From NCBI RefSeq assembly GCF_026151205.1, contig NC_087077.1, forward strand, positions 3,844,001 through 3,908,000: DNA of 64,000 bases, given 5' to 3'. Source of the stretch: Bolinopsis microptera. Taxonomy: Eukaryota; Ctenophora; Tentaculata; Lobata; Bolinopsidae. Shown piece by piece: positions 21,208-62,631 of this stretch. The notes beneath the pieces were generated by a model. That model had not been told where the DNA came from. It searched no databases and saw only the letters and a list, made by a program, of their open reading frames with translations. The translations under genes and the position numbers were made by a program. The stretch's first letter is position 1; each line of letters opens with the position of its first letter.

Positions 21208-23526
21208 ATGGCTGCTTTAAAGATGGTAGGAGGAGCGAGTGCGGTGGCGCTGCTAACAGTGGGAGGAGCATTATTACAGAACAGTCTGTACACGGTGGAA
21301 GGAGGACACAGGAGTATATTGTTCAGCAGGATGGGCGGTCTCCAGGAGAAGGTCTACAAGGAAGGTATGCAGTTACCATGGTTACACATATGCAGATCCA
21401 GTGTCTAGTTCTTAGTCAATATAGTCTTAGTCAAATTATGCATGGCGCTGTACTTTAAAGGTTTATCATTTTTGAGTGCCAAAGTAAGAACCTTCCTATA
21501 TAAACTCAAAGTTTTCAAAATCAAATTAACAACAGCTTGTTTCTTGATTTTATCCCACCACTTCCAGGTTTAAATTTTAAAGTGCCGTGGCTCCACAAAC
21601 CCATTGTATTCGATATCCGTGCTACCCCAAGAAGGATAACCTCTCCAACGGGATCCAAAGATCTGCAGACTGTCCATATCAGCCTCAGGGTGTTGTCCAG
21701 ACCCGACCCTATTAAGCTCACAACCATTACCCGAAGACTGGGCCTAGACTTCAATGACAGGTATGTAGTAACATACCGTATGTCATATTTAATTGAGATG
21801 TTGTTAGTTTATGAACTTGTTCACTCAATGTTCAGTGATCTCAAGTCCCTTGGAACTCTTCAATACATTTTAAACATATTTTTGAGGAAAATTCTATGAA
21901 TCCCAATGTTAAATTAATTTTGGCCTATCAAATATTAAACTAATTCGATTTCAGGGTTCTTCCATCAATCGTAAACGAGATATTGAAGTCTGTGGTTGCT
22001 CAGTTTAATGCCTCTCAGTTGATCACACAGCGTCAAATGGTAGGTAAACATAGGTCACATAGGTCACAAATAACCTGTCAATATACCTCTCATCATCTTT
22101 AAATAACACCATCTCGGAGTGTGCTCTGAGTTTACTATGTCACACCAACTGGGTTTACTATGTCTAATGTCACACCATTGTAACTGGGTTTACTACCTTC
22201 TAAAAAAGAGTTAACTTGCTCAAATTCCTTTTCACAAACCCAAAGCAAATTACTGTAATCGTGAAAACCAATTTAGCTCTAAATATTTAGACTTGGCCAC
22301 TTGCCAGCTGACTGTATTTACTCTCTGTCAGGTGAGTAACATGGTCCGTGAACAGCTGGTTGAGCGAGCACGAGACTTTGATATCATCCTGGAGGATGTG
22401 GCCATCACAGACCTATCTTTCTCTCCTCAGTACACGGCTGCTATTGAGTCTAAACAGATCGGTGGGTTCATACTTCATAGTCCTTCTTAGTTCTTATTGT
22501 TGGGCCACAATAACCTTACCCTTGTTCTGATTCTGGAATTGAATGATGAGTATTGGTATTTCATGGCCTTGTCCTAAAACAAAACAAGTAAAAAAAACGG
22601 GTATGAAACATATCTTTACTACGAATTAAACACGACTCACAATCTTACTGTAACTTCTCCTTGTAGCTCAACAGGAGGCCCAGAGAGCAGCTATATTGGT
22701 GGAGCGAGCGGTTCAGGAGCGACAACAGAAGATCGTCCAAGCTGAGGGAGAGACCAGAGCTGCCTTCATGTTGGGAGAGGCTATCGAGGGAAACCCTGGA
22801 TTCTTAAAGCTCAGGAGGTATATATCAGCTTTATTTCCATTTCTTGTTATCATTTTTATCGTGATGTTTGTTATGAGCTGGAATTGCAAGTCTGTAACTA
22901 GTCTGTAACTAGTCTGTAACTTGTCTGTAACTTGTCTGTAACTTGTCTGTAACTTGTCTGTAACTTGTCTGTAACTTGTCTGTAACTAGTCTGTAAAGTG
23001 TCTGTAAAGTGTCTGTAACTTGTCTGTAACTTGTCTGTAACTTGTATGTAACTTGTCTGTAACTTGTCTGTAACTTGTCTGTAACTTGTCTGTAACTTGT
23101 CTGTAACTTATCTGTAACTTGTCTGTAACTTGTCTGTAACTTGTCTGTAACTTGCTTGTAACTTGTTTGTAACTAGTCTGTAACTTGACTGTAACGACCA
23201 CATCCCCCAGGATAACAGCTGCTAAACACATTGCCGCCACCATGTCCAAGTCTCAGAACAAGGTTTATCTCTCCTCCGACTCTCTCTTCCTCAACATCAG
23301 AGACACTGAGCGAGACGAACATCTCTATTCTTTCGGTGCGGTTCCAGAAGCAGGCCCTATTGTAACTGCAGCCGCCCCTATTGTTGCTGCTGCTCCTGTA
23401 GCCGCTCCTGCCCCTGTAGCCGCTCCTGCTCCTGTGCTCCCCCCGGTCCCTGAATTCGCTGATATCCCTGAGATCACCGTGGTCCCAGAGGCCCCCGCCG
23501 CTGTCCCTGAAGAAGTCTCTGCCTAA
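21208..23526 (+). CDS. phb2: Prohibitin-2 with Ala/Pro-rich C-terminal extension
   Basis: Six exons: 21208-21364, 21568-21760, 21955-22039, 22332-22461, 22667-22817, 23211-23526; all introns GT-AG, total 343 residues. Prohibitin-2 pairs with prohibitin-1 in large ring complexes of the inner mitochondrial membrane. The sequence shows an N-terminal hydrophobic anchor ([14 protein letters not shown]), [17 protein letters not shown], the PHB/SPFH domain with [11 protein letters not shown]-like [12 protein letters not shown] and [11 protein letters not shown], then the coiled coil with [20 protein letters not shown] and [18 protein letters not shown]. This matches prohibitin-2 rather than prohibitin-1. 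Odd: animal prohibitin-2 normally ends about 20 residues after LNL; here about 65 residues follow, rich in Ala and Pro ([20 protein letters not shown]). The start is also some 20 residues shorter than the human protein. Intron 5 is largely an 11-bp minisatellite. Confidence 0.95.
22891..23195. repeat. 11-bp minisatellite in prohibitin-2 intron 5
   Basis: About 28 copies of TCTGTAACTTG with variants (AACTAG, AAAGTG). It ends 15 nt before the acceptor of the last exon and so takes the place of most of the usual branch-point and pyrimidine region, leaving only a short CATCCCCCAG before the exon. Confidence 0.95.
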
Positions 23527-26071: not shown

Positions 26072-27211
26072 TGTGAGTAAGATCTAGGAGAATTAGCGGA
26101 TATTTCAGAGCTGTGTTGGAGTAAGATCTAGGAGAATTAGCAGATCTACCAGAGCTGTGTTGGAGTAAGATCTAGGAGAATTAGCAGATCTACCAGAGCT
26201 GTGTTGGAGTAAGATCTAGGAGAATTAGCAGATCTACCAGAGCTGTGTTGGAGTAAGATCCAGTAGAATTAGCAGATCTACCAGAGCTGTGTTGGAGTGA
26301 GATCTAGGAGAATTAGCAGATCTACCAGAGCTGTGTTGGAGTAAGATATAGGAGAACTAGCGGATATTTCAGAGCTGTGTTGGAGTAAGATCCAGTAGAA
26401 TTAGCAGATCTACCAAAGCTGTGTTGGAGTAAGATCCAGTAGAATTAGCAGATCTACCAGAGCTGTGTTGGAGTAAGATATAGGAGAACTAGCGGATATT
26501 TCAGAGCTGTGTTGGAGTAAGATCCAGTAGAATTAGCAGATCTACCAGAGCTGTGTTGGAGTAAGATCTAGGAGAATTAGCAGATCTACCAGAGCTGTGT
26601 TGGAGTGAGATCTAGGAGAATTAGCAGATCTACCAGAGCTGTGTTGGAGTAAGATCTAGGAGAACTAGCGGATATTTCAGAGCTGTGTTGGAGTAAGATC
26701 CAGTAGAATTAGCAGATCTACCAAAGCTGTGTTGGAGTAAGATCCAGTAGATTTAGCAGATCTACCAGAGCTGTGTTGGAGTAAGATATAGGAGAACTAG
26801 CAGATGTACCAGAGCTGTGTTGGAGTAAGATATAGGAGAATTAGCAGATCTACCAGAGCTGTGTTGGAGTAAGATATAGGAGAACTAGCGGATATTTCAG
26901 AGCTGTGTTGGAGTAAGATCCAGTAGAATTAGCAGATCTACCAGAGCTGTGTTGGAGTGAGATCTAGGAGAATTAGCAGATCTACCAGAGCTGTGTTGGA
27001 GTAAGATATAGGAGAACTAGCGGATATTTCAGAGCTGTGTTGGAGTAAGATCCAGTAGAATTAGCAGATCTACCAAAGCTGTGTTGGAGTAAGATCCAGT
27101 AGAATTACCAGATCTACCAGAGCTGTGTTGGAGTAAGATCTAGGAGAATAAGCAGATCTACCAGAGCTGTGTCGAAGTAAGATCTATAAGAATAAGAGTT
27201 GTGTTGGAGTG
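26072..27211. repeat. 44-bp minisatellite with higher-order arrangement
   Basis: About 26 monomers of 44 bp with core AGCTGTGTTGGAGTAAGAT. Three monomer classes are seen: GATCTAGGAGAATTAGCAGA, GATATAGGAGAACTAGCGGA (with ATTTCAG), and GATCCAGTAGAATTAGCAGA. They occur in recurring order, with the second class followed by one or two of the third. The array ends about 480 bp before the pICln start codon. Confidence 0.95.
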
Positions 27212-32470: not shown

Positions 32471-32548
32471 TATGTTCGCCAATCACCATGTATTGGTACG
32501 GTGCTATTTTATCGTTTTTAACAATATTACATATATTTATAAACTGAC

Positions 32549-33274
32549 GGGGGGGGGCCAATGGCATAAATGGAGAAAATGGAGAATTACTCATAGGTTT
32601 TTCCATTTTCTCCATAGAAATAGTCTCCATTTTATGCCATTTTATGCCATTTTATGCCATCGAAAACCTGAAAAATTTAGAATTTCGAGAAAAATTATTT
32701 TTTAAAAAATATTTTCGGCCGATAATGAACAGGGTAACATTTTTGAACATTTTTTTTTGAACATTCCATGAAACATGGAGAAAAGTGGTTTTTAGAAAAA
32801 ACTTTGAAAAATTTTGACTTAGAAAATTTTTGGCCCGAGTCATTTTCGATACGTACCTCCCGTATCGAGAGCTCCCGATTCCGAGCTCGTGTTGCAAAGG
32901 GGAGGCCTGCCTTCCGAGATCGCATTACCTCGAGTCCAAAATTGTGTATCGAGGGGAAGGTGTGGACTTCGAAAAACCGAAAAAATATTTTCAGCAAATA
33001 ATGAACAGGGTAGCATGAAACGTGGAGAAAAGCGGTTTTCAGAAATTTGAAAAATGTTCAGAAATTTGAAAAATTTCGGCTTATAATGAACAAGGTAGCA
33101 TGAAACGTGGAGAAAAGTGTTTTTCAGAAAAACTTTGAAAAATTTTGACTTAGAAAATTACCCCTCGGGTACACAATTTTGGACTCGAGGCTTCCCCCCA
33201 TAGAAAAAGTCTCCATTTTATGCCATTTTATGCCATTTTATGCCATTGGCCCCCCCCCCCCCCCCCCCCCCCCC
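32549..33274. mobile_element. 726-bp element with poly-G/poly-C ends and 8-bp duplication
   Basis: The left end is a G run then GGCCAATGGCATAAATGG. The right end is TGCCATTTTATGCCATTGGC and a 25-nt C run. An exact 8-bp duplication AAACTGAC lies outside both ends (32541-32548, 33275-33282). Subterminal TTTTATGCCA is repeated three times near both ends, and the interior has repeated blocks with TGGAGAAAAG and TTTTGACTTAGAAAAT. No coding capacity. The 8-bp duplication points to hAT-type mobilisation. Confidence 0.75.
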
Positions 33275-33282
33275 AAACTGAC

Positions 33283-33670
33283 TTAATATTTGTAACTGAT
33301 ATAGTATTTTATTTATTTATTTTAGTACCCAAAATTGTGTTTTTATTTTTTCACAATACAACTTCACTTGGGAAAAGTAATATACAGCATATGGCAACCA
33401 GGCAACTTACGTTTTAGGCTACAAATATTCAATATTGATCAAATAGTTACCATAGTTACATTAACTTTGCTGTAACCTAATAATTGCGACGATAAAAAGT
33501 CCCAAATTTTCATTTTAGAAATTTGATCAATTTATCGAATTATTTAAGTATGATAGTATTTACAGCTCATGGTGATACGTTATTTCGAGGGAACTGGCTC
33601 ACACTCTAAAGAAGTACCAGGTGCTTATTCTGGGCTGGCTTCAGTGTAAATATCGCAGGTAGCTACGCAG
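33283..33670. other. Short stretch without a gene
   Basis: AT-rich, no recognisable feature between the homopolymer-tipped element and the SINE. Confidence 0.5.
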
Positions 33671-34227
33671 AAATGAGATCTTGTTGGACCCTCTAATTGA
33701 GATTTGGTAAGTGTTTGTGCACTTGTCGTTAGTTTGTCGAGATTTGGTTTTTGGCTTTTCGGCATCAACGGCTTAGTGGCTCAGTTGGTTAATCCGGGCC
33801 TGGTATTGCTTGAGGTACCAGGTTCGATTCCCGACTCTGTCACTAGCCGTGGGGTGAGCGTCGTCGACGCTCAGCTAAGGACCCTGAGTGGTCTATGCAG
33901 CCCCCCGGTCCACTCAGCCAAATACTCGAGAAATCGGGTGTGAGGGTTAAATGAGGAGCTGCCCATTGCAGCAAAGTCTCGGGCGAAGACAGTATGGTAC
34001 ACACTACCTTAACCGTCACTGGCCTAATGTATAATTGAATCCTTCGGCTTCCTGTAATTGGCTGGTTACACACTTGTGTAACAATGTGGCTGTTGGAATG
34101 TCCGAAGTAAAATAAGAGTTGAGATAAAAAAAAAATGAGATCTTGTTGGACCCTCTAATTGAGATTTGGTAAGTGTTTGTGCACTTGTCGTTAGTTTGTC
34201 GAGATTTGGTTTTTGGCTTTTCGGCAT
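33671..34227 (+). mobile_element. tRNA-derived SINE flanked by an exact 95-bp direct repeat
   Basis: The SINE body (about 33766-34132) has a tRNA-like head with box A TGGCTCAGTTGG and box B GGTTCGATTCC, a GC-rich middle, and an A-rich 3' end (GAGATAAAAAAAAA). The same 95-bp sequence, beginning AAATGAGATCTTGTTGGACC and ending TTTTCGGCAT, lies immediately before (33671-33765) and after (34133-34227). No difference was seen between the copies. Confidence 0.9.
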
Positions 34228-34351
34228 TATGCCAAAATATATCAGAATCCAAATTAAAACAATTAAATTCAAGAAATCCCAAAAGTGGATCGTAAACAAG
34301 CCCATTAGCTTCCGGTTCCCTCCGAGAGAACGAGAAGAGTGAGCTTAGATC

Positions 34352-35676: not shown

Positions 35677-36053
35677 TACTAAATCGCTCCTACTAAATCG
35701 CTCGCCCAAACTTTAAGAAAATTCTTGTGAAAAGGCCCTTTAGGCATGAAAGTGATCTAGATCGGTGTATTTTTGGACACTGATTCCGAATCACCCCACA
35801 TGACGTAGGGTTAAAATGCTTCTCTGGAGAGTTATGGGCAAAAAACCGTTTTGGTCACGTGACAGGCTAGTAAAACGTGAATTCGATTATTTAGGGTTCG
35901 GGTTAGGGTTAGGGTTGTGGTTAAGATTATGGATAGCTTCGGGGTTATGGTTAGGGTTAGGGTTGGGATTAGGGTTTATGTAAAACCGTTTTGTACGGCT
36001 GCAAAACCAAAAAAACCAAAGTCACGTGAAATTTTTGGGCGAGCGATTTAGTA
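35677..36053. mobile_element. MITE with TTAGGG-like interior
   Basis: Ends are TACTAAATCGCTCGCCCAAA at 35691-35710 and its near complement at 36034-36053; the left end is partly duplicated at 35677. The interior (35890-35978) carries degenerate TTAGGG repeats. A fragment of the same family lies at 31915-31990 in the opposite orientation. Confidence 0.7.
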
Positions 36054-44636: not shown

Positions 44637-47600
44637 TTAGTCTGCGTCATCTGCGTCATTACTTTGTATTATACAACTTCGGCGGGTAATATTTCTCCAT
44701 CCTTTTCGATCTGCAGCCAATCTTCTCATACAATCAATCATGAGTCCATTACGATCCAATCTCTGCTCAGCATCTTCAATAAATACATCATTTAAGCTCT
44801 TCCTAGGCCTGCCTCTTGATCGTTTCCCATGCTTGGGTTTCCATTCAAGTAGATAGTTAGGTAACCGATCTTCAGGCATTCTACTGACATGTCCAAACCA
44901 ACGTAGCCGTTTTGTTGCTATTATGTCAGTAAGAGCAGTTATTGAAGCCCTTCTTAAAACATCTTCATTTCTTACTCGATGGAACCACCTCACTCTAAGG
45001 ATTCTGCGTAAGCAGTACTGATGGAAAGACTCTAATCTTCTTGTCTGCACTTGAGTCGTGTTCCATATCTCACTTCCATAGGTCAGAATGGTAAGAACAG
45101 CTGCGATGTAGATTCGCACTTTGTTGTTAATGCTTATGTTCTTATTCTTCCAAATGTTATTGAGTTGGTTAAAAGCTCCGGTTGCTTTTCCAATCCTGAC
45201 ACTTATTTCTTTATCGATCTTGCCATCCGATGTAATTTTGGCACCCAAATAAGTGAATTGAGTGACCTGCTTTGCAGAGTTTCCATCGACAGTAATATCT
45301 ATGGTCCTATTCTCTGGGAGTGGGTGCTGCGACGTATCTTTCCCAATTACCATGATCTCTGTTTTCTTTGCGTTCATCTTTAAACCCCCAAGCCCGCAGT
45401 ATTTCGCAATATTGTCCGTTGTTTCTTGCAGTCCCTCGACAGTGTCATCCATGCCTGCTATAAATCAAGAGGCTTGCATATATTGAACATATTGACACGG
45501 GTGCAGAGTTGAGTCTGTACGGAACCTAGTAGTTTCAGATCCTTGTTTAACTTGCCGTATAGCAAGGTCATCCACTACTTTAGCCCGGCGAGGCACATAA
45601 CTCCCTCTACAACTCCATGACAAATGTTTCATATATACTAGCCGAATTCACAAGATATATCCTTGTGTTTGAGAAGAGCTCGTTAGAACTGCTTCCTTTC
45701 CCTTCAGTATCCCACAGTCTCTCGAGTTTCGTAACTGCCAGAGAACTCTCTTAAACAATTACTAGACTCGGTGATTATAATGTCATCAGCATAGTCCAAA
45801 TCAATGACACATTTTTCCGGTTGTCTGGAACTTTGTCTGTACTGAAGAGTAAAACCACGCGATATATTTTTAAACTTCTCGGCAAGTTCTAATCCCCAGT
45901 TAAGTACAAGGTTGAAAATGGGGGGCCCTTGCACATCACCTTGTCCAGTCCCCGAATCGACATTAAACCATCTTGTCAATTCCCCATTGACACGAACTGC
46001 ACTTTCAGTTGCTCTAAAGAACGCTTTGAAAACATTGATGTATTTTATTGGAAGACCATAATGTTCAAAAGCTTTCCAAATAAAGTCACGATTGATTGAA
46101 TCAAAAGTAGCTTTAAAATCAATAAAGTTTATATACAAAGGGACGTTGAATTCTATACAATTGTGTATTATACAATGAAGGGAGTATAGCTGATCTATAC
46201 AAGAACGGTTTCTCCTGAAACCACACTGATTTTCTCTAAGTAACTTTTCAAGCCCATTACTTAGTCTTTTTAACAACACGATTTGAAATAACTTCGATAC
46301 GGTGGAGCGTAGAGTTATCCCTCTGTTGTTGTTGCAATATGTGAGGTCCCCTTTCTTTGGGATGATGGTGATGATTCCTTTCCTCCAATCACTAGGAATA
46401 TCCTCACTTTTCCATACAGTTTCAAACAAATCTTTTAACCAAGGCAGAAGTCCAGGAGAACCGTACTTTAACTGCTCATTTGAAATTTCATCAATTCCAG
46501 CACTTTTGTAGTTCTTCAACTTCTTGATAGCTTCCTCAATTTCAAACAAGGACGGTGGCTCATCATCATTACTAAGATATTCAAAAGAAAGTACTTTTTC
46601 GTCCTCATCCAATAGAGAGAAATCCACCGCATCTGCTGCTGGCGTTAAGAGTTCTTCAAAATATTCGGCCCAGCGATGTGACTGAGCGTCGGGATCTGAT
46701 ATAAGTGTCCAATTCTTATCCCGCACTGCCGCAGATCTGTTTACTCTCTTGTTTGTAAGGGATTTTATTTTTTGCCAAACATCTCTTTGTTGACCCTGCT
46801 TGGCAGCCTCTTCCAATTCCTCAGCTACTCTAACAGCCCAGGCATTATCATCTCTTTTACAGTTCTGCCTAACAAGACCGTTAATCTGCGAGTACTTAGC
46901 ACGATTCTCAGCAGTACTAGGTTTCTTTTTAATCTCACCTCGTTCTTTTAGGAGATTCTTAGTATCCTTTGAGAGATGTTCTGTTCTCTTTTTCCGGCCC
47001 CTTTCACCCAGAACTTCAAACGAGATATCAGTTATAATGTCTCTCAATTTCTTCCATTGTTCTTCTAAAGGAGAGTTTTCAAGCTCCTGATCGTTGGTAT
47101 AGTATTTTTCAGCTATTTTGTTACTATATTCCTGGCTCTTAGATCTATCACGCAAGTTCTCTAAAGCAGGCTGTCTTACACGCTTCTTTCTTTTCTGTGG
47201 ACACTTAAGCTTAATAGATACATATCCTCTTACCAGGTAGTGAGTAGTATTTATATCTGCTCCTCTCATGCTCCTGACATCAAGCAAAGAATGGCTCCAA
47301 TACAAATATGGTCAATTTGAGTGACGGTGTTACCATTTGGGGATCTCCATGTTGTCTTGTGGATATCCTTGTGTTCAAAAAGTGTGCCTCCGATCGTCAG
47401 CTGGTGCATAGTACAGAAATCTAGCATCCGTTTTCCGTTATCATTGGATTCTGTGTGATATGAGTGTTTTCCTATAACACCAGGGTGAGCATCAGTGTCC
47501 CTTCCAACACGAGCATTAAAATCTCCTAAAACTATTTTTATATCATGAGCAGGTAGTCCCGATTGAACATCATTCAATTCCTTGTAGAATGAGTCTTTTA

Positions 47601-48276
47601 AACTGATCTCTGCATCCTCAGTTGGAGCATATACCACTGTAACACTAATGTTGATGTGTTTGCTATGTAAACGGGCAGTCATAACCCGTCCTGATACAGG
47701 GGTGTATGATATGAGAGTATTCTTCATCTTTTTGGACAGTACAACACCGACTCCTTCTCTCCGTACCCCATCATTCCTGCCAGAATACACCAAAACAGCC
47801 CCATTTCCCAAAGTCTGAGTTCCCGATCCAGCCATATGTGTTTCAGTTACCCCAAGGAGCTCTAGTCCATAATCATCAAACCCTTTTCCCAATTGATACA
47901 TTTTGCTGGAATTGCTGACAAGAGAAGTAACATTCCATGTACTGACACAGAGAGGATTCTTTACTATATTTACAGGATTAGACATACTTGACTGTCTGTT
48001 TACAAATGATAAATCTGATGAAGGAATTCTGTATTTACAGTGTTTACGTCGGCTCTTACGGGAGTTGCAAACAGACATCAAGCTACTAGGGTCCTTTCGG
48101 CTTTGCCTAGTCGCCGTCATCACTCCACCTGCGCCTCCACGTATAATACTATTGAATGACACTGTAGACGTTTCTGTAGCGGTTTGATTTAAGGTGGATG
48201 GTTTGCCGGACCTTCGCACCCGATCCAGAGGCAGCACCGACATCGAAATGTAAGCCCTCCGTCCGGACACCAGCAT
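44637..48276 (-). pseudogene. APE-type non-LTR retrotransposon, disrupted
   Basis: Minus strand. 48276-47266 encodes an apurinic-type endonuclease domain: STWNVTSL, LLGVTETHM, VVYAPTED, VLGDFNARVG, ending QIDHICIG. 47305-45704 continues in another frame (a small deletion near 47295) with reverse transcriptase blocks: IPKKGDLTYCNNNRGITL, NQCGFRRNRSCIDQL, GTGQGDVQGPPIFN and the catalytic LDYADDIIIT. 45452-44637 has KMNAKKTEIMVIGK, FTYLGAKITSDG and a tail with RLRWFGHVSRMPEDRLP, typical of RTE/Nimb/I-like LINEs. About 310 bp of unrelated sequence separates the YADD block from the thumb. Near the 3' end the coding sequence finishes in short GACGCAGAT-type repeats. Frameshift and insertion make it inactive. 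Confidence 0.92.
45453..45766. other. Insertion inside the LINE reverse transcriptase
   Basis: Protein similarity breaks after TES (following YADDIIIT) and resumes at MDDTVEGLQETTDN. In related LINEs these are nearly adjacent. The intervening 314 bp shows stops in all minus frames; no terminal repeats or poly-A were identified. Confidence 0.6.
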
Positions 48277-48639
48277 GCTGGTGGTTAGGTTCGATACGTA
48301 AAATTAAAGCATGCAGAGCTTCTGAAGCCCTTAGGGAATCAAAATTGAACCGTAAGTGATCATGTTTGAGACAAGATCACCAAGCATGGCAAATGCTCGA
48401 TTACACAGGGCAACCAAGACTTGGACAATATGGTGAACCGTAGGTGACACACAGATGACCCTGCCACAACACAGCATCACCAAGCATCACCCAGCAAATG
48501 CATCCTCTCGCCGCCACAGCAACCGACCCCCCAGTGATATAGCACTGACAGGCAATTAACGGTTTTATGGTGTTACCACTCCCAGGTGATCTGTGCTAAC
48601 AGACTCGGACCAGATGCAATGGGTAGCAAAATTAGTTTA
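48277..48639 (-). other. Probable 5' leader of the LINE
   Basis: GC-richer than its surroundings, with several CACCAAGCAT(C/G)-type repeats (about 48379 and 48478) and no open frame of note. It lies between the endonuclease ORF and the tRNA-like sequence, as expected for a 5' UTR. Confidence 0.5.
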
Positions 48640-48713: not shown

Positions 48714-48724
48714 TGATAAAGATG

Positions 48725-48796
48725 TGCGATGACCGGGAATTGAACCCGGATCCACTGCTTGGAAGGCAACGATGCTGACCATTACACCACCATCGC
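48725..48796 (-). tRNA. tRNA-Gly (anticodon TCC)
   Basis: 72-nt cloverleaf on the minus strand. Acceptor GCGATGG pairs with TCATCGC (one G-T), discriminator A; D-arm box A TGGTGTAATGG; anticodon loop CTTCCAA; T-arm CCGGG-TTCAATT-CCCGG with box B GGTTCAATTCC. The sequence closely resembles animal tRNA-Gly(TCC). Only a short TTT follows, a weak pol III terminator, and a tRNA-like sequence starts 12 bp downstream. Confidence 0.93.
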
Positions 48797-52339: not shown

Positions 52340-53540
52340 AAGTGGTGACTTTTCAAATATACTACAGATACTTGATGGTGCTACTCCCATATAAACCTTG
52401 TGCATCAAAGTTAGACAGCTTTTAGCAATGAGATTAGGAAGAGCCAAAATTCCTATTTTGTTGAAGATGGATTTTGTGTGAGATGGTAGTTTACGTTTTT
52501 CTTTGTCGTAAAAATAGTTATGATATTCTGAATCAGTGGCACGAATAGCTTTCTTTTGAGCAGAGAATAAATACTGAATGGAATTTAAAAATTTAGTACC
52601 CCAAACAGTAGCGCATGATACAGATGAGATTTAATTAAGCTATTTTATAGCATTTTTTAAGCTTTATTGGGAATGGAACTTTAAGTTTCATCATAACGCC
52701 AGCATTTCTAGATATTTTAGTCTTTAACTGTTTAATGTGCTAATTTTTGAGTCAATTATGACATCTAAAAATCGTTCATGTTCACTTTTCACCAGTCGCT
52801 GTCCTTCTATACTAATATTTATATCCTCTGGTAATCTGTTAGTGAATATCATGTATTTAGTTTTGCCTACATTAGGTTTAATGCCGTTGTTTTTAACCCA
52901 TGTCTGTACAGTATTTAAAATTCTGTTTGCACGCATGTTCAGTTCAGTGTACGTGTCGGCAGAAACGATGATGTTTGCATCATCAGCGAAGAAAATATAA
53001 TGGGCTATATCGCTTACATTTGCAAGGTCGTTTATTTAAATAATGAACAATATAGGACCAAGAATGGACCCTTGAGGAACTCCATGTTCCAGCCCCATTT
53101 TTTCTGAACTGCAAACGTTGACGTGAACATACTGTTTCCGGTTAGTTAGATAAGACCCAAACCAGGATAAGCTGAGGCCTCTTAAGCCATTGTGCTCCAG
53201 CTTATGTAGCAGTATCTCACTGTCTATTAGGTCAAATGCCTTGGAAAAGTCAAGAAGCAGTAATGCTGACACTTGCTTTCTTTCTAGAGCTTTCTTTAAG
53301 TTAAACTGGGCTTCAAGCAACGCATGTTCACAACTGTGACCCGATCTAAAACCAAATTGCGACGCATATAGAATATTACGTGATTTTAAGTGCTTTACTA
53401 AACGTGCATGCATTACTTTTTCGAATATCTTTGAGAAGCAGGACAAAAGCGAGATTGGTCTGTAGTTTGTAATTTCGCTGCGCAATCCTCCTTTATGGAG
53501 TGCCTCATTCATATTGAAGGCATACCTAATCCAAAACGTG
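52340..53540 (-). pseudogene. CR1/Jockey-type LINE reverse transcriptase fragment
   Basis: Minus strand, 5'-truncated. 53512-53036 shows ITNYRPISLLSCFSKIFEKV, SQFGFRSGHSCEHALLEA, LLLLDFSKAFDLIDS (first catalytic Asp) and HGVPQGSILGPILF. After a TAA the frame continues NDLANVSDIAHYIFFADDAN (FADD active site) and ICNTVQTW-like thumb sequence with GIKPNVGKTKYMIF (52936-52724). Frameshifted pieces extend to about 52340 with a final IFNKIGILALPNLIAK-like end. The nonsense and shifts make it dead. No endonuclease domain remains. Confidence 0.85.
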
Positions 53541-53699
53541 AGATTTGATCATGCTTTCTTGATTATCTCTTACAAAAAGTCCACACTTGCAGACGATATC
53601 TGTTCACGATTTCAAGTCTCCTCAAATATTTGGACAAGGTTGATCGTTAGTACCGAATCATATCGTCGACAACTGAAACCACCGTTAATTCCCACAGCA

Positions 53700-56652: not shown

Positions 56653-56694
56653 GTAGGTGGAGCTGTCTAACTTCAGCACTTAACAATCAATACG

Positions 56695-57176
56695 TGTTTT
56701 TCACATTCTATCACGTGTTTTTCGCATTTTATCACGTGTTTTTCGCATTTTAATTTTATCACGCGTTTTTCACATTTTATCACGTGTTTTTCACGGTTTT
56801 ATCACTTGTTTTTCACGGTATTATCACTTGTTTTTCACGGTTTTATCACGTGTTTTCACGGTTTTATCACGTGTTTTTCACGGTTTTATCACGTGTTTTT
56901 CACGGTTTTATCACGTGTTTTTTCACGGTTTTATCACGTGTTTTTCACGGTTTTATCACGTGTTTTTCACGGTTTTATCACGTGTTTTTCACGGTTTTAT
57001 CACTTGTTTTTCACGGTATTATCACGTGTTTTTCACGGTTTTATCACGTGTTTTCACGGTTTTATCACTTGTTTTTTACGGTTTTATCACGTGTTTTTCA
57101 CGGTTTTATCACGTGTTTTTCACATTTTATCACGTGTTTTTCACATTTTATCACGTGTTTTTCACGGTTTTATCAC
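56695..57176. repeat. 22-bp E-box minisatellite
   Basis: About 21 units of TTATCACGTGTTTTTCACGG. Sixteen contain exact CACGTG; four read CACTTG and one CACGCG. It lies in the interval between candidate first exons C and D, its end about 430 bp before the ATG at 57607. Open frames through it (for example 56784-57436) are repeat artefacts. Confidence 0.95.
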
Positions 57177-57606
57177 GGACTAGAAAACTCAAAACACTGG
57201 TACTACAATTTTTGGTTGATCTGCGATTGAAACCTACATCAGAATTCAGAACCTCTGTTCCAATATTTTTGTCATTCATGGTGAAAAGTTCACACAATTC
57301 ATATATAAAAAATTTTGTCACATTTTTTGTCATTCATCCCACAATTTTCAAGAAACACGTCGAAAATATCGTGCTCATAATTGTAATCTTAACACAATGT
57401 AATCTTAACACAATGCATGATATATCTAATGCATAACATATCTAATGTATATATGAACAGTAATCAAGTGAGAGCGCTATAATTAGCACTTATTATCTAG
57501 GATCTCCTAACCTCCTATAATATCCAGTGTCGAGTACACATTATCTAATGTCGTATCTATCGTACCGTGTCGTGTCGTGTAATTGGTAAAGTAAACGTTT
57601 TGCAAT

Positions 57607-59885: not shown

Positions 59886-62631
59886 GTTTATACATTTTTA
59901 GTTTTATTGTCTTTGTTTAATTACAGTTCTCCCCTTTTACTTCATATCATGACGTTCCTGTTCTAGGCACACTTCATTGAGTGGCTATATGACTCATCCA
60001 CGACGTCGATTCTAAGTCATCGATTACTTTTTGTCAGACATCAACTGTTCCGACATTGACTCATCTACGTCATCGATTACTTTTTGTCGGACATCAACTG
60101 TTCCGACATAGTGCTACTCCAAGTAGTTCCCTGTTCTGTACAATACTTTAACAGCCTAACACTTGTTACGTTTATGAACAGGACTCTCCTGAGGTGTTTA
60201 CTGGTAATGATGTCTGATTCCAAAAATAGTAATCTACCTTAACCCTATACTTATCTCTACCTGCAGCATTGAGGCATATTCATAAAAGAGCTTAACTGGT
60301 AGATTCGCTTGATTGTTAGTACAGTGAAAGGTTATATGAAATAAAATGTATGCTTTAAATGAGATGTCAGATAAGCATTACTTCTATAACTTATATAAGT
60401 TTGCATATCTAAAATGTAGGTTTAAAACCTTTAGTAACCTTTAAAGATCAATTTGATTATGTAATACGAATCCAAGTTTTATTACTTGTACCTTGAAAAC
60501 TGGGTTACACGACGTCGTTTATTCCGTTAAACAAGAAGCCATAGTATATCAAATTACATGTAAATGTTTCATAAAATTTTAGAAAGCCGATAGTTAATCC
60601 AATTATAAGTTCTCGAAAGCCGATAGCTATTCTAAAAATACAGTTCTCAGTTAACTGTGGCTACTCCAGAATGGCTGTCTTGATACCCAATATAATCTAG
60701 GAAATCCAACTTTCCACAACTTTCCACAGTGCAGTTTAGAGGCGGTTAAACTCCCCGGTTAGTTAGCCTTGCATGTAGGGGAGACATTTCAACACTTCTT
60801 ATATCTGGAAAACGTGTTTTATAACTTTACCTCCACTTTACCTCCACTTTACCTCCACTTTACCTCCACTTTACTTCCACTTTACCTCCACTTTACCTCC
60901 ACTTTACTTCCACCTTACCTCCACTTTACTTCCACTTTACCTCCACTTTACCTCCACTTTACTTCCACTTTACCTCCACTTTACTTCCACTTTACCTCCA
61001 CTTTACCTCCACTTTACTTCCACTTTACCTCCACTTTACTTCCACTTTACCTCCACTTTACTTCCACTTTACTTCCACTTTACTTCCACTTTACCTCCAC
61101 TTTACTTCCACCTTACCTCCACTTTACTTCCACTTTACTTCCACTTTACTTCCACTTTACCTCCACTTTACTTCCACCTTACCTCCACTTTACCTCCACT
61201 TTACTTCCACTTTACTTCCACTTTACTTCCACTTTACCTCCACTTTACCTCTACTTTACTTCCACTTTACCTCAACTTTTCTTCCACTTTACCTCCACTT
61301 TACCTCCACTTTACTTCCACTTTACCTCCACTTTACCTCCACTTAACCTCCACTTTACCTCCACTTTACCTCATGCCAGGAATATCGCTCTTCTTCAATT
61401 CTGCGGCCTCTATAACGATTAGCGTGTTATTCACGTTACAAGTTAAGATGACAACTGGAAGCACTTAATATTGAAATTCTAACTGTGACTCCCTCTAGTC
61501 ATTAGGCCGCCTCACAGTATCACACCATTATGAAGAGTTTATTGTATACACTAAGACGTTCTGTGCGGGGGGGGGGTCATACACTTAGTACCTGATCCCC
61601 CCCCCCCCCCCCCCCCCCGCAAAACTTTGAAAATGTTCGTCGGAATATTGCTGTTTTTTATTGCTTTTTTCGATCACACAATGCATTTGAAAATGATCGC
61701 AGCTAAGGTATGTATTAAAATTTTTGGATAGGTTACCAGCGAGACTAAAATGACAAATATATTGATATTTTCTTTGATGTTAAACTCAACGACATTTAGA
61801 ATATTCAGAGTCATCAAACATTTCAATTAATATTTTGAAACTGTTCACATCCAGTGACGAAAATATCAAATATTTTAAGAAGCACTACCAACACATACCC
61901 AGATATAGATATATACATAGTGGAGATATTCCAGCATTTGTAAAAAGATTACATTCAGATTGTACGACTTGTTGTACAAAGTGGAAGATTGAACAGAAAA
62001 ACCAAAATAATCGCCTGAACTATTACATGTATGACTTCCCTCGCGGAACTGAATTCTGTCCTCTATTTCCAGAAACGTTTACAATATCATCTACTCACCT
62101 TTAAATTGCAGTGTACCCCCGTTATACCTGATCCCCCCTACCTGATCCAATAACAGACTATTTATTATTTCCTTGGAACTGTATGTTAGTTGTGTGTACA
62201 GCTGTGTATGATAAACTTATTGCTGTATTTCACTTGTTCCCTCAGTCTACTGACCTCTCTATGAGTTTAAAAAGAAATGCACACAAAAAAGTACGTGATA
62301 AGTAAGAATAATCTCACACGTGCAGCTGGCAGCACTTACATAGTTACCATAGCGACCAGAACTCACATACCACGTACGGGTTGTGTCTGATAAACGTGGT
62401 GTGGCACGTACAAATACTGCTGCGTTACTTTTATATTTTCTGATGTCTGTAATAACCAGCTCTGTATATTAAATCCCTGTTTTATTATTTGGAATTTTGT
62501 TACAGATCTGATCATATAGGAGTCCTGTCTCAGTATTTGCTGTCTGATCTAACGCTGTATTGTTCTAGCGTTGTAGTTTGTACTTTGTACACTAGTTATA
62601 GTACTTTGTTTTTTACCTACTTTTATTTCAG
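59886..62631. other. Intron stretch with minisatellite and homopolymers
   Basis: Between the two exons of the unrecognised gene. It holds the 11-bp minisatellite, the pair TGCGGGGGGGGG (61564-61576) and 22-nt C run with GCA (61597-61621) forming an inverted pair, and an 89-codon open frame (61835-62104, DFPRGTEFCPLFPETF) with no family recognised. ACCTGATCCCCCC-type sequence occurs on both sides of that frame (61590 and 62126-62150), so it may belong to a repeat element. The segment ATCATCGATTACTTTTTGTC repeats near 60017 and 60071. Confidence 0.5.
60829..61373. repeat. 11-bp minisatellite, about 49 copies
   Basis: CTTTACCTCCA alternating irregularly with CTTTACTTCCA. No phase slip over some 545 bp. 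The 217-codon open frame here (FTSTLPPLYLH repeats) is a repeat product. Confidence 0.96.

Follow-up and report, generated by a model that had tools for sequence, protein, structure and literature searches.

Between two identical 95-bp direct repeats in the genome of the ctenophore Bolinopsis microptera lies a full-length SINE of 367 bp (Table 1). We analyzed it within a stretch of 64,000 nucleotides of contig NC_087077.1 (positions 3,844,001 to 3,908,000 of the forward strand), referred to here as the window. An earlier note, made from the sequence alone, had described two identical 95-bp copies abutting a tRNA head and an A-rich tail. The identity was borne out: repeat comparison of the window aligned the two copies at 100% over 95 bp each, the 95-mer matched nowhere else in the window, and a search of the genome (264,652,675 bases in 232 contigs) returned two candidates, both of which were scored and proved to be the two SINE flanks, with no match from a second haplotype. 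The abutment also held at both ends: the left copy is followed without a gap by the SINE head (CAACGG...), while the right copy begins within the terminal A-run; three A's can be assigned to either tail or target, giving a duplication of 92–95 bp. The tRNA itself fared less well. Because ARAGORN made no tRNA call in the SINE head and Rfam returned no match at E ≤ 1, we name the head tRNA-like rather than filing it as tRNA-derived. Its spaced match to the consensus of the Pol III A and B boxes is the only one on either strand of the window.

Since the 95-mer was found nowhere else in the genome, the target was single-copy and not a unit of a larger array, and a larger repeat array was rejected as the target. 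A chance origin of the repeat was rejected as well, the exact match spanning 95 bp. Folding of the 95-mer gave nothing notable (z = −1.0).

Table 1. Features of the SINE and its flanking repeats, in window coordinates.
Feature	Position	Strand	Basis
Target-site duplication, left copy	33671..33765	+	Identical to 34133–34227; two genome copies found
SINE, full length, 5' CAACGG, 3' GAGAT + A-run	33766..34132	+	Genomic matches, aligned full-length copies
Pol III A-box-like (33777–33788) and B-box-like (33821–33831) motifs in tRNA-like head	33777..33831	+	Match to the consensus
Terminal A-run, last three A's tail or target	34126..34135	+	Sequence reading
Target-site duplication, right copy	34133..34227	+	Identical to 33671–33765; two genome copies found
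Putative first-strand nick, after 3'-terminal T's able to prime on A-tail	33670..33671	-	Left border of the duplication
Putative second-strand nick, inside GGCAT/TATGCC; in the empty site, 95 bp downstream of the first	34227..34228	+	Right border of the duplication

The window holds several other repeats. The segment at 32527–33295 has inverted terminal arms with G/C runs, and part of it matches the 5' flank of another SINE copy (L090; 97% over 101 bp). Long tandem arrays lie at 26075–27193 (44-bp unit), 22890–23195 (11 bp), 60824–61372 (11 bp), and 56692–57178 (about 22 bp), and a degenerate TTAGGG array (35891–35976, 67% matches), a telomere-type repeat, sits far inside this 20.9-Mb contig. 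The minus strand carries a LINE at 44637–48303, with Exo_endo_phos and RVT_1 (Pfam) domains spread over three open frames, and a fragment of another reverse transcriptase (RVT_1) at 53036–53548. About 420 bp beyond the 5' side of the LINE there is a tRNA-Gly gene (48724–48796).

The SINE family

A genome search with the SINE yielded 1075 first-look candidates, of which the best 40 were scored; these were 98–100% identical to the query, the query itself included. Pattern searches, which gave 13 matches for the 3' end and 52 for the head, enlarged the set, as did two further searches with variant copies. Counting matches with an identical 40-bp flank once, 94 matches reduced to 64 unique matches, which include 54 full-length ones; seven more from a later search brought the total to 61 full-length copies. 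Ten of the 64 unique matches, which are fragments (seven loci), were left out of the 61. All family counts are lower bounds, with the best 40 candidates scored per DNA search.

The copies are short, lie dispersed at dozens of sites between unrelated flanks, and share a 3' tail. Six of the matches (L060, L082, L084, L097, L098, and L103) end in GAGA and T-runs followed by A's instead of GAGAT and A's, and to judge from these letters it is as if a Pol III-type terminator stood ahead of the tail. The copy between the 95-bp repeats differs from the family majority at 3 of 364 positions. A recent event, as had been suggested from the identity of the repeats, is compatible with this, but 23 of the 61 copies carry fewer differences.

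Flanking duplications across the family

Duplications were scanned for in about 600 to 1500 bp of flank, with the alignment anchored at both element ends and 290 mismatched left-right pairs as the control, in which the score was never above 9. Four of the 61 copies scored above the control: the copy at 33766–34132, L076, L018, and L101. The remaining 57 scored at most 8, and thus have no duplication above control. L018 and L101 sit in tandem arrays of 7-bp units, from which a duplication is indistinguishable. The L076 duplication, on the other hand, is 340 bp long with 2 mismatches, and a genome-wide search with 339 bp of it found its two flanking copies and no third. Long duplications (95 and 340 bp) therefore occur in 2 of 59 readable copies, and no class between about 9 and 90 bp exists among the 61. 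At the seven fragment loci, flank matches were at most 11 bp with scores of at most 8, or there were none; for one of these loci (L050) the best alignments were 19–20 bp with 9–12 mismatches.

Very long duplications could in principle extend beyond the fetched flanks. For 29 copies (13 + 16) we searched the genome with the final 80 bp of the 5' flank, and 26 of these flank ends were found at their own place only, among 40 scored places. Of the other three, L028 and L065 are in high-copy repeats (that of L028 being LINE-like) and L020 has one relative, at 92% identity. For the copies tested, duplications reaching beyond the fetched flanks are thus unlikely. At the other end of the scale, short exact duplications of at least 3 bp directly at the junction were present in 6 of 47 copies against a shuffled mean of 5.2, which is no excess, in a count that misses junctions with extra or shared bases.

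Where a SINE copy lies inside a repeat, paralogues of that repeat that lack the SINE serve as empty sites. Comparison of L019 with L092–L094 gave a duplication of 0–3 bp, the range being set by an AAC common to the target and the SINE head. L028 compared with L095 and L096 gave 3–4 bp, and L065 compared with L108 and L109 gave 2–3 bp, with two additional bases at the 5' junction. A fourth comparison, of L020 with L110, matched on one side only and was uninformative. Near-blunt insertion seems, from these alignments, to be the rule in this family, and the 95- and 340-bp cases seem to be rare departures from it; a near-blunt join was demonstrated at 3 of the 57 copies without a readable duplication, and the rest may be blunt joins or target-site deletions. 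The earlier note had expected duplications of 5–20 bp, and these are not what this family makes: 57 of 61 copies have none above control and the three empty sites give 0–4 bp. It had also proposed measuring the flanks of other copies, and the 61 measured here are not uniformly short, L076 reaching 340 bp.

5' junctions

Base composition at the 5' junction was counted in the 53 copies that have neither head repeats nor an array context. T occupied position −1 in 35 of the 53 (p = 2.3e-7 against a background of 0.309); the enrichment was weaker at −2 (32 copies) and −3 (31 copies). This points to top-strand cutting after T's, and the preference argues for cutting by an endonuclease rather than for random breaks. 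It concerns the 5' junction only, as the A-tail blurs the first-strand site.

In 6 of 54 copies (L002, L025, L029, L053, L089, and L091), the complete head is preceded, immediately or nearly so, by one or more extra partial SINE heads. From their arrangement they look like the product of template switching as reverse transcription finished, the new template being a second or a shortened one. Separately, palindromic junctions (L074, L047, L020, L028, and L077) reached a score of at least 8 in 5 of 47 copies against a mean of 0.84, with 1 of 200 shuffles as high, a weak excess.

Search for a partner LINE

An exact genome search with the last 22 nt of the SINE gave 13 matches, comprising 11 known full-length copies and 2 truncated SINEs and no LINE. 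Comparison of the 103 nt that precede the A-tail with the window and with loci L001–L096 yielded, apart from SINEs, weak matches only (best E = 0.024). Inspection by eye of the window's LINE on its 3' side, and of the TAG-tailed LINE that holds L019, did not reveal a partner either. The family of this TAG-tailed LINE had 28 exact 80-bp matches among 40 scored places, and its members, unlike the SINE, show duplications that measure by eye some 12 bp in L092 and 9 bp or more in L094.

Discussion

We consider it likely, with a probability of roughly 0.8, that the 95-bp duplication was made by target-primed reverse transcription that was finished at a remote nick in the second strand. The tRNA-like SINE RNA would have been copied into the site by the target-primed reverse transcription of a LINE. 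The endonuclease would have nicked the bottom strand after T's, and priming would have used the oligo-A tail. The top strand would then have been opened about 95 bp downstream, instead of at the usual spot roughly opposite the first nick, and gap filling would have produced two copies of the 95-bp target. The distal nick might have been a late cut by the endonuclease or an unrelated nick; we infer both its origin and the two-nick route. Widely staggered nicks, one of the readings in the earlier note, gain support because the target is single-copy and because L076 carries a 340-bp duplication of which the genome yielded no third copy. L076 has the same geometry as the 95-bp case, and these two are the only long unambiguous cases.

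The same arrangement could have been produced if a tandem pair of 95-mers was already in place and the SINE inserted near-blunt exactly at the unit boundary. All three informative empty sites are near-blunt, and an ordinary insertion at such an existing junction would look alike. With exactly two units, however, only a hit on the boundary gives the observed geometry, an insertion elsewhere leading to another layout. The genome search gave no third 95-mer, and L076 would require the same coincidence again. Insertion into one unit of a pre-existing tandem repeat, which the earlier note had also raised, is accordingly disfavored, as no other 95-mer was found and an exact boundary hit is needed, and we regard it as unlikely.

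The completeness of the SINE and the A-tail at its 3' junction speak against another route, in which a staggered double-strand break or a replication accident led to repair by tandem duplication, with endonuclease-free capture of SINE cDNA at the junction; so do the 5' junctions of the family, whose preference for T suggests endonuclease cutting. Break repair would yield the same final product, a duplication and an insert, and the extra partial heads in 6 of 54 copies are a possible sign of end joining or template switching, but on balance this route is improbable. Finally, identical direct repeats enclosing an internal part with a tRNA-like stretch resemble a mobile unit with terminal repeats, for example a miniature LTR element. 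The probability of this is close to nil, since such an element is refuted by a 95-mer found at this single site and an internal 367 bp dispersed over dozens of places with unrelated flanks.

Under the preferred reading of a distant second-strand nick, the 95-bp copy looks like a rare insertion product of an already known kind rather than the outcome of a new mechanism. A bolder and rather doubtful proposal is that the family has two integration modes, one near-blunt (57 of 59 readable copies, about 97%, in which no duplication could be read) and one using a distal nick about 100–350 bp away, with no 9–90 bp class; this reading rests on two long cases. Were it true, cleavage of the second strand by the element's own enzyme could be told apart from rescue by an independent host nick, and the source of the second nick would become testable within one family. 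The 95- and 340-bp cases stand out against a family background of seemingly 0–4 bp, without intermediates in 61 copies, and are useful in asking by what means, and by which enzyme, second-strand cutting is achieved when LINEs and SINEs integrate.

Comparison with known systems

For human L1, long target-site duplications (L-TSD, >20 bp) are in print, and in PMC5223499 and PMC4245944 they are a minority in normal cells and extend from hundreds of base pairs to kilobases in NER-deficient cells. PMC4245944 places the peaks of duplication length at 13–15 bp for L1, 3–5 bp for L2 (CR1 being much alike), and 10–12 bp for RTE, and its authors favor a clade-specific position, processed afterwards by host factors, over random second cuts. 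In HeLa cells, duplications above 100 bp make up at most 10% of L1 events. The L1 products resemble the SINE site in that an insert stands between long copies of target DNA. The SINE copy fits the account given for L1 if an ordinary first nick and priming on the A-tail were followed by completion at a nick some 95 bp off. The L1 products differ in that the usual L1 duplication given there is about 15 bp, as opposed to seemingly 0–4 bp in the SINE family, and in that the element here is a SINE. Natural SINE insertions can, as this case shows, yield long products of a kind that these papers describe mainly from L1 cell assays.

LINEs of the CR1/L2 clade have tails made of a short tandem repeat, whereas the SINE ends in A's, and the searches above gave no LINE with its 3' end. 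In PMC4245944, ZfL2-1 makes duplications of 3–5 bp, comparable to 0–4 bp at the three empty sites, and extra nucleotides occur at 5' junctions, as they do in the SINE family. The Sauria SINE, mobilized by Bov-B/RTE, is likewise a LINE-moved SINE with a T-rich target signature, but the duplications collected for it in PMC13295347 are 10–49 bp, and none of that length rose above control here. In searches of open-access papers we recognized no case like this SINE family; a paper found there under very long duplications deals with L1 and Alu. Long duplications of LINE-type insertions are already in print, and the SINE case is one more long target-site duplication.
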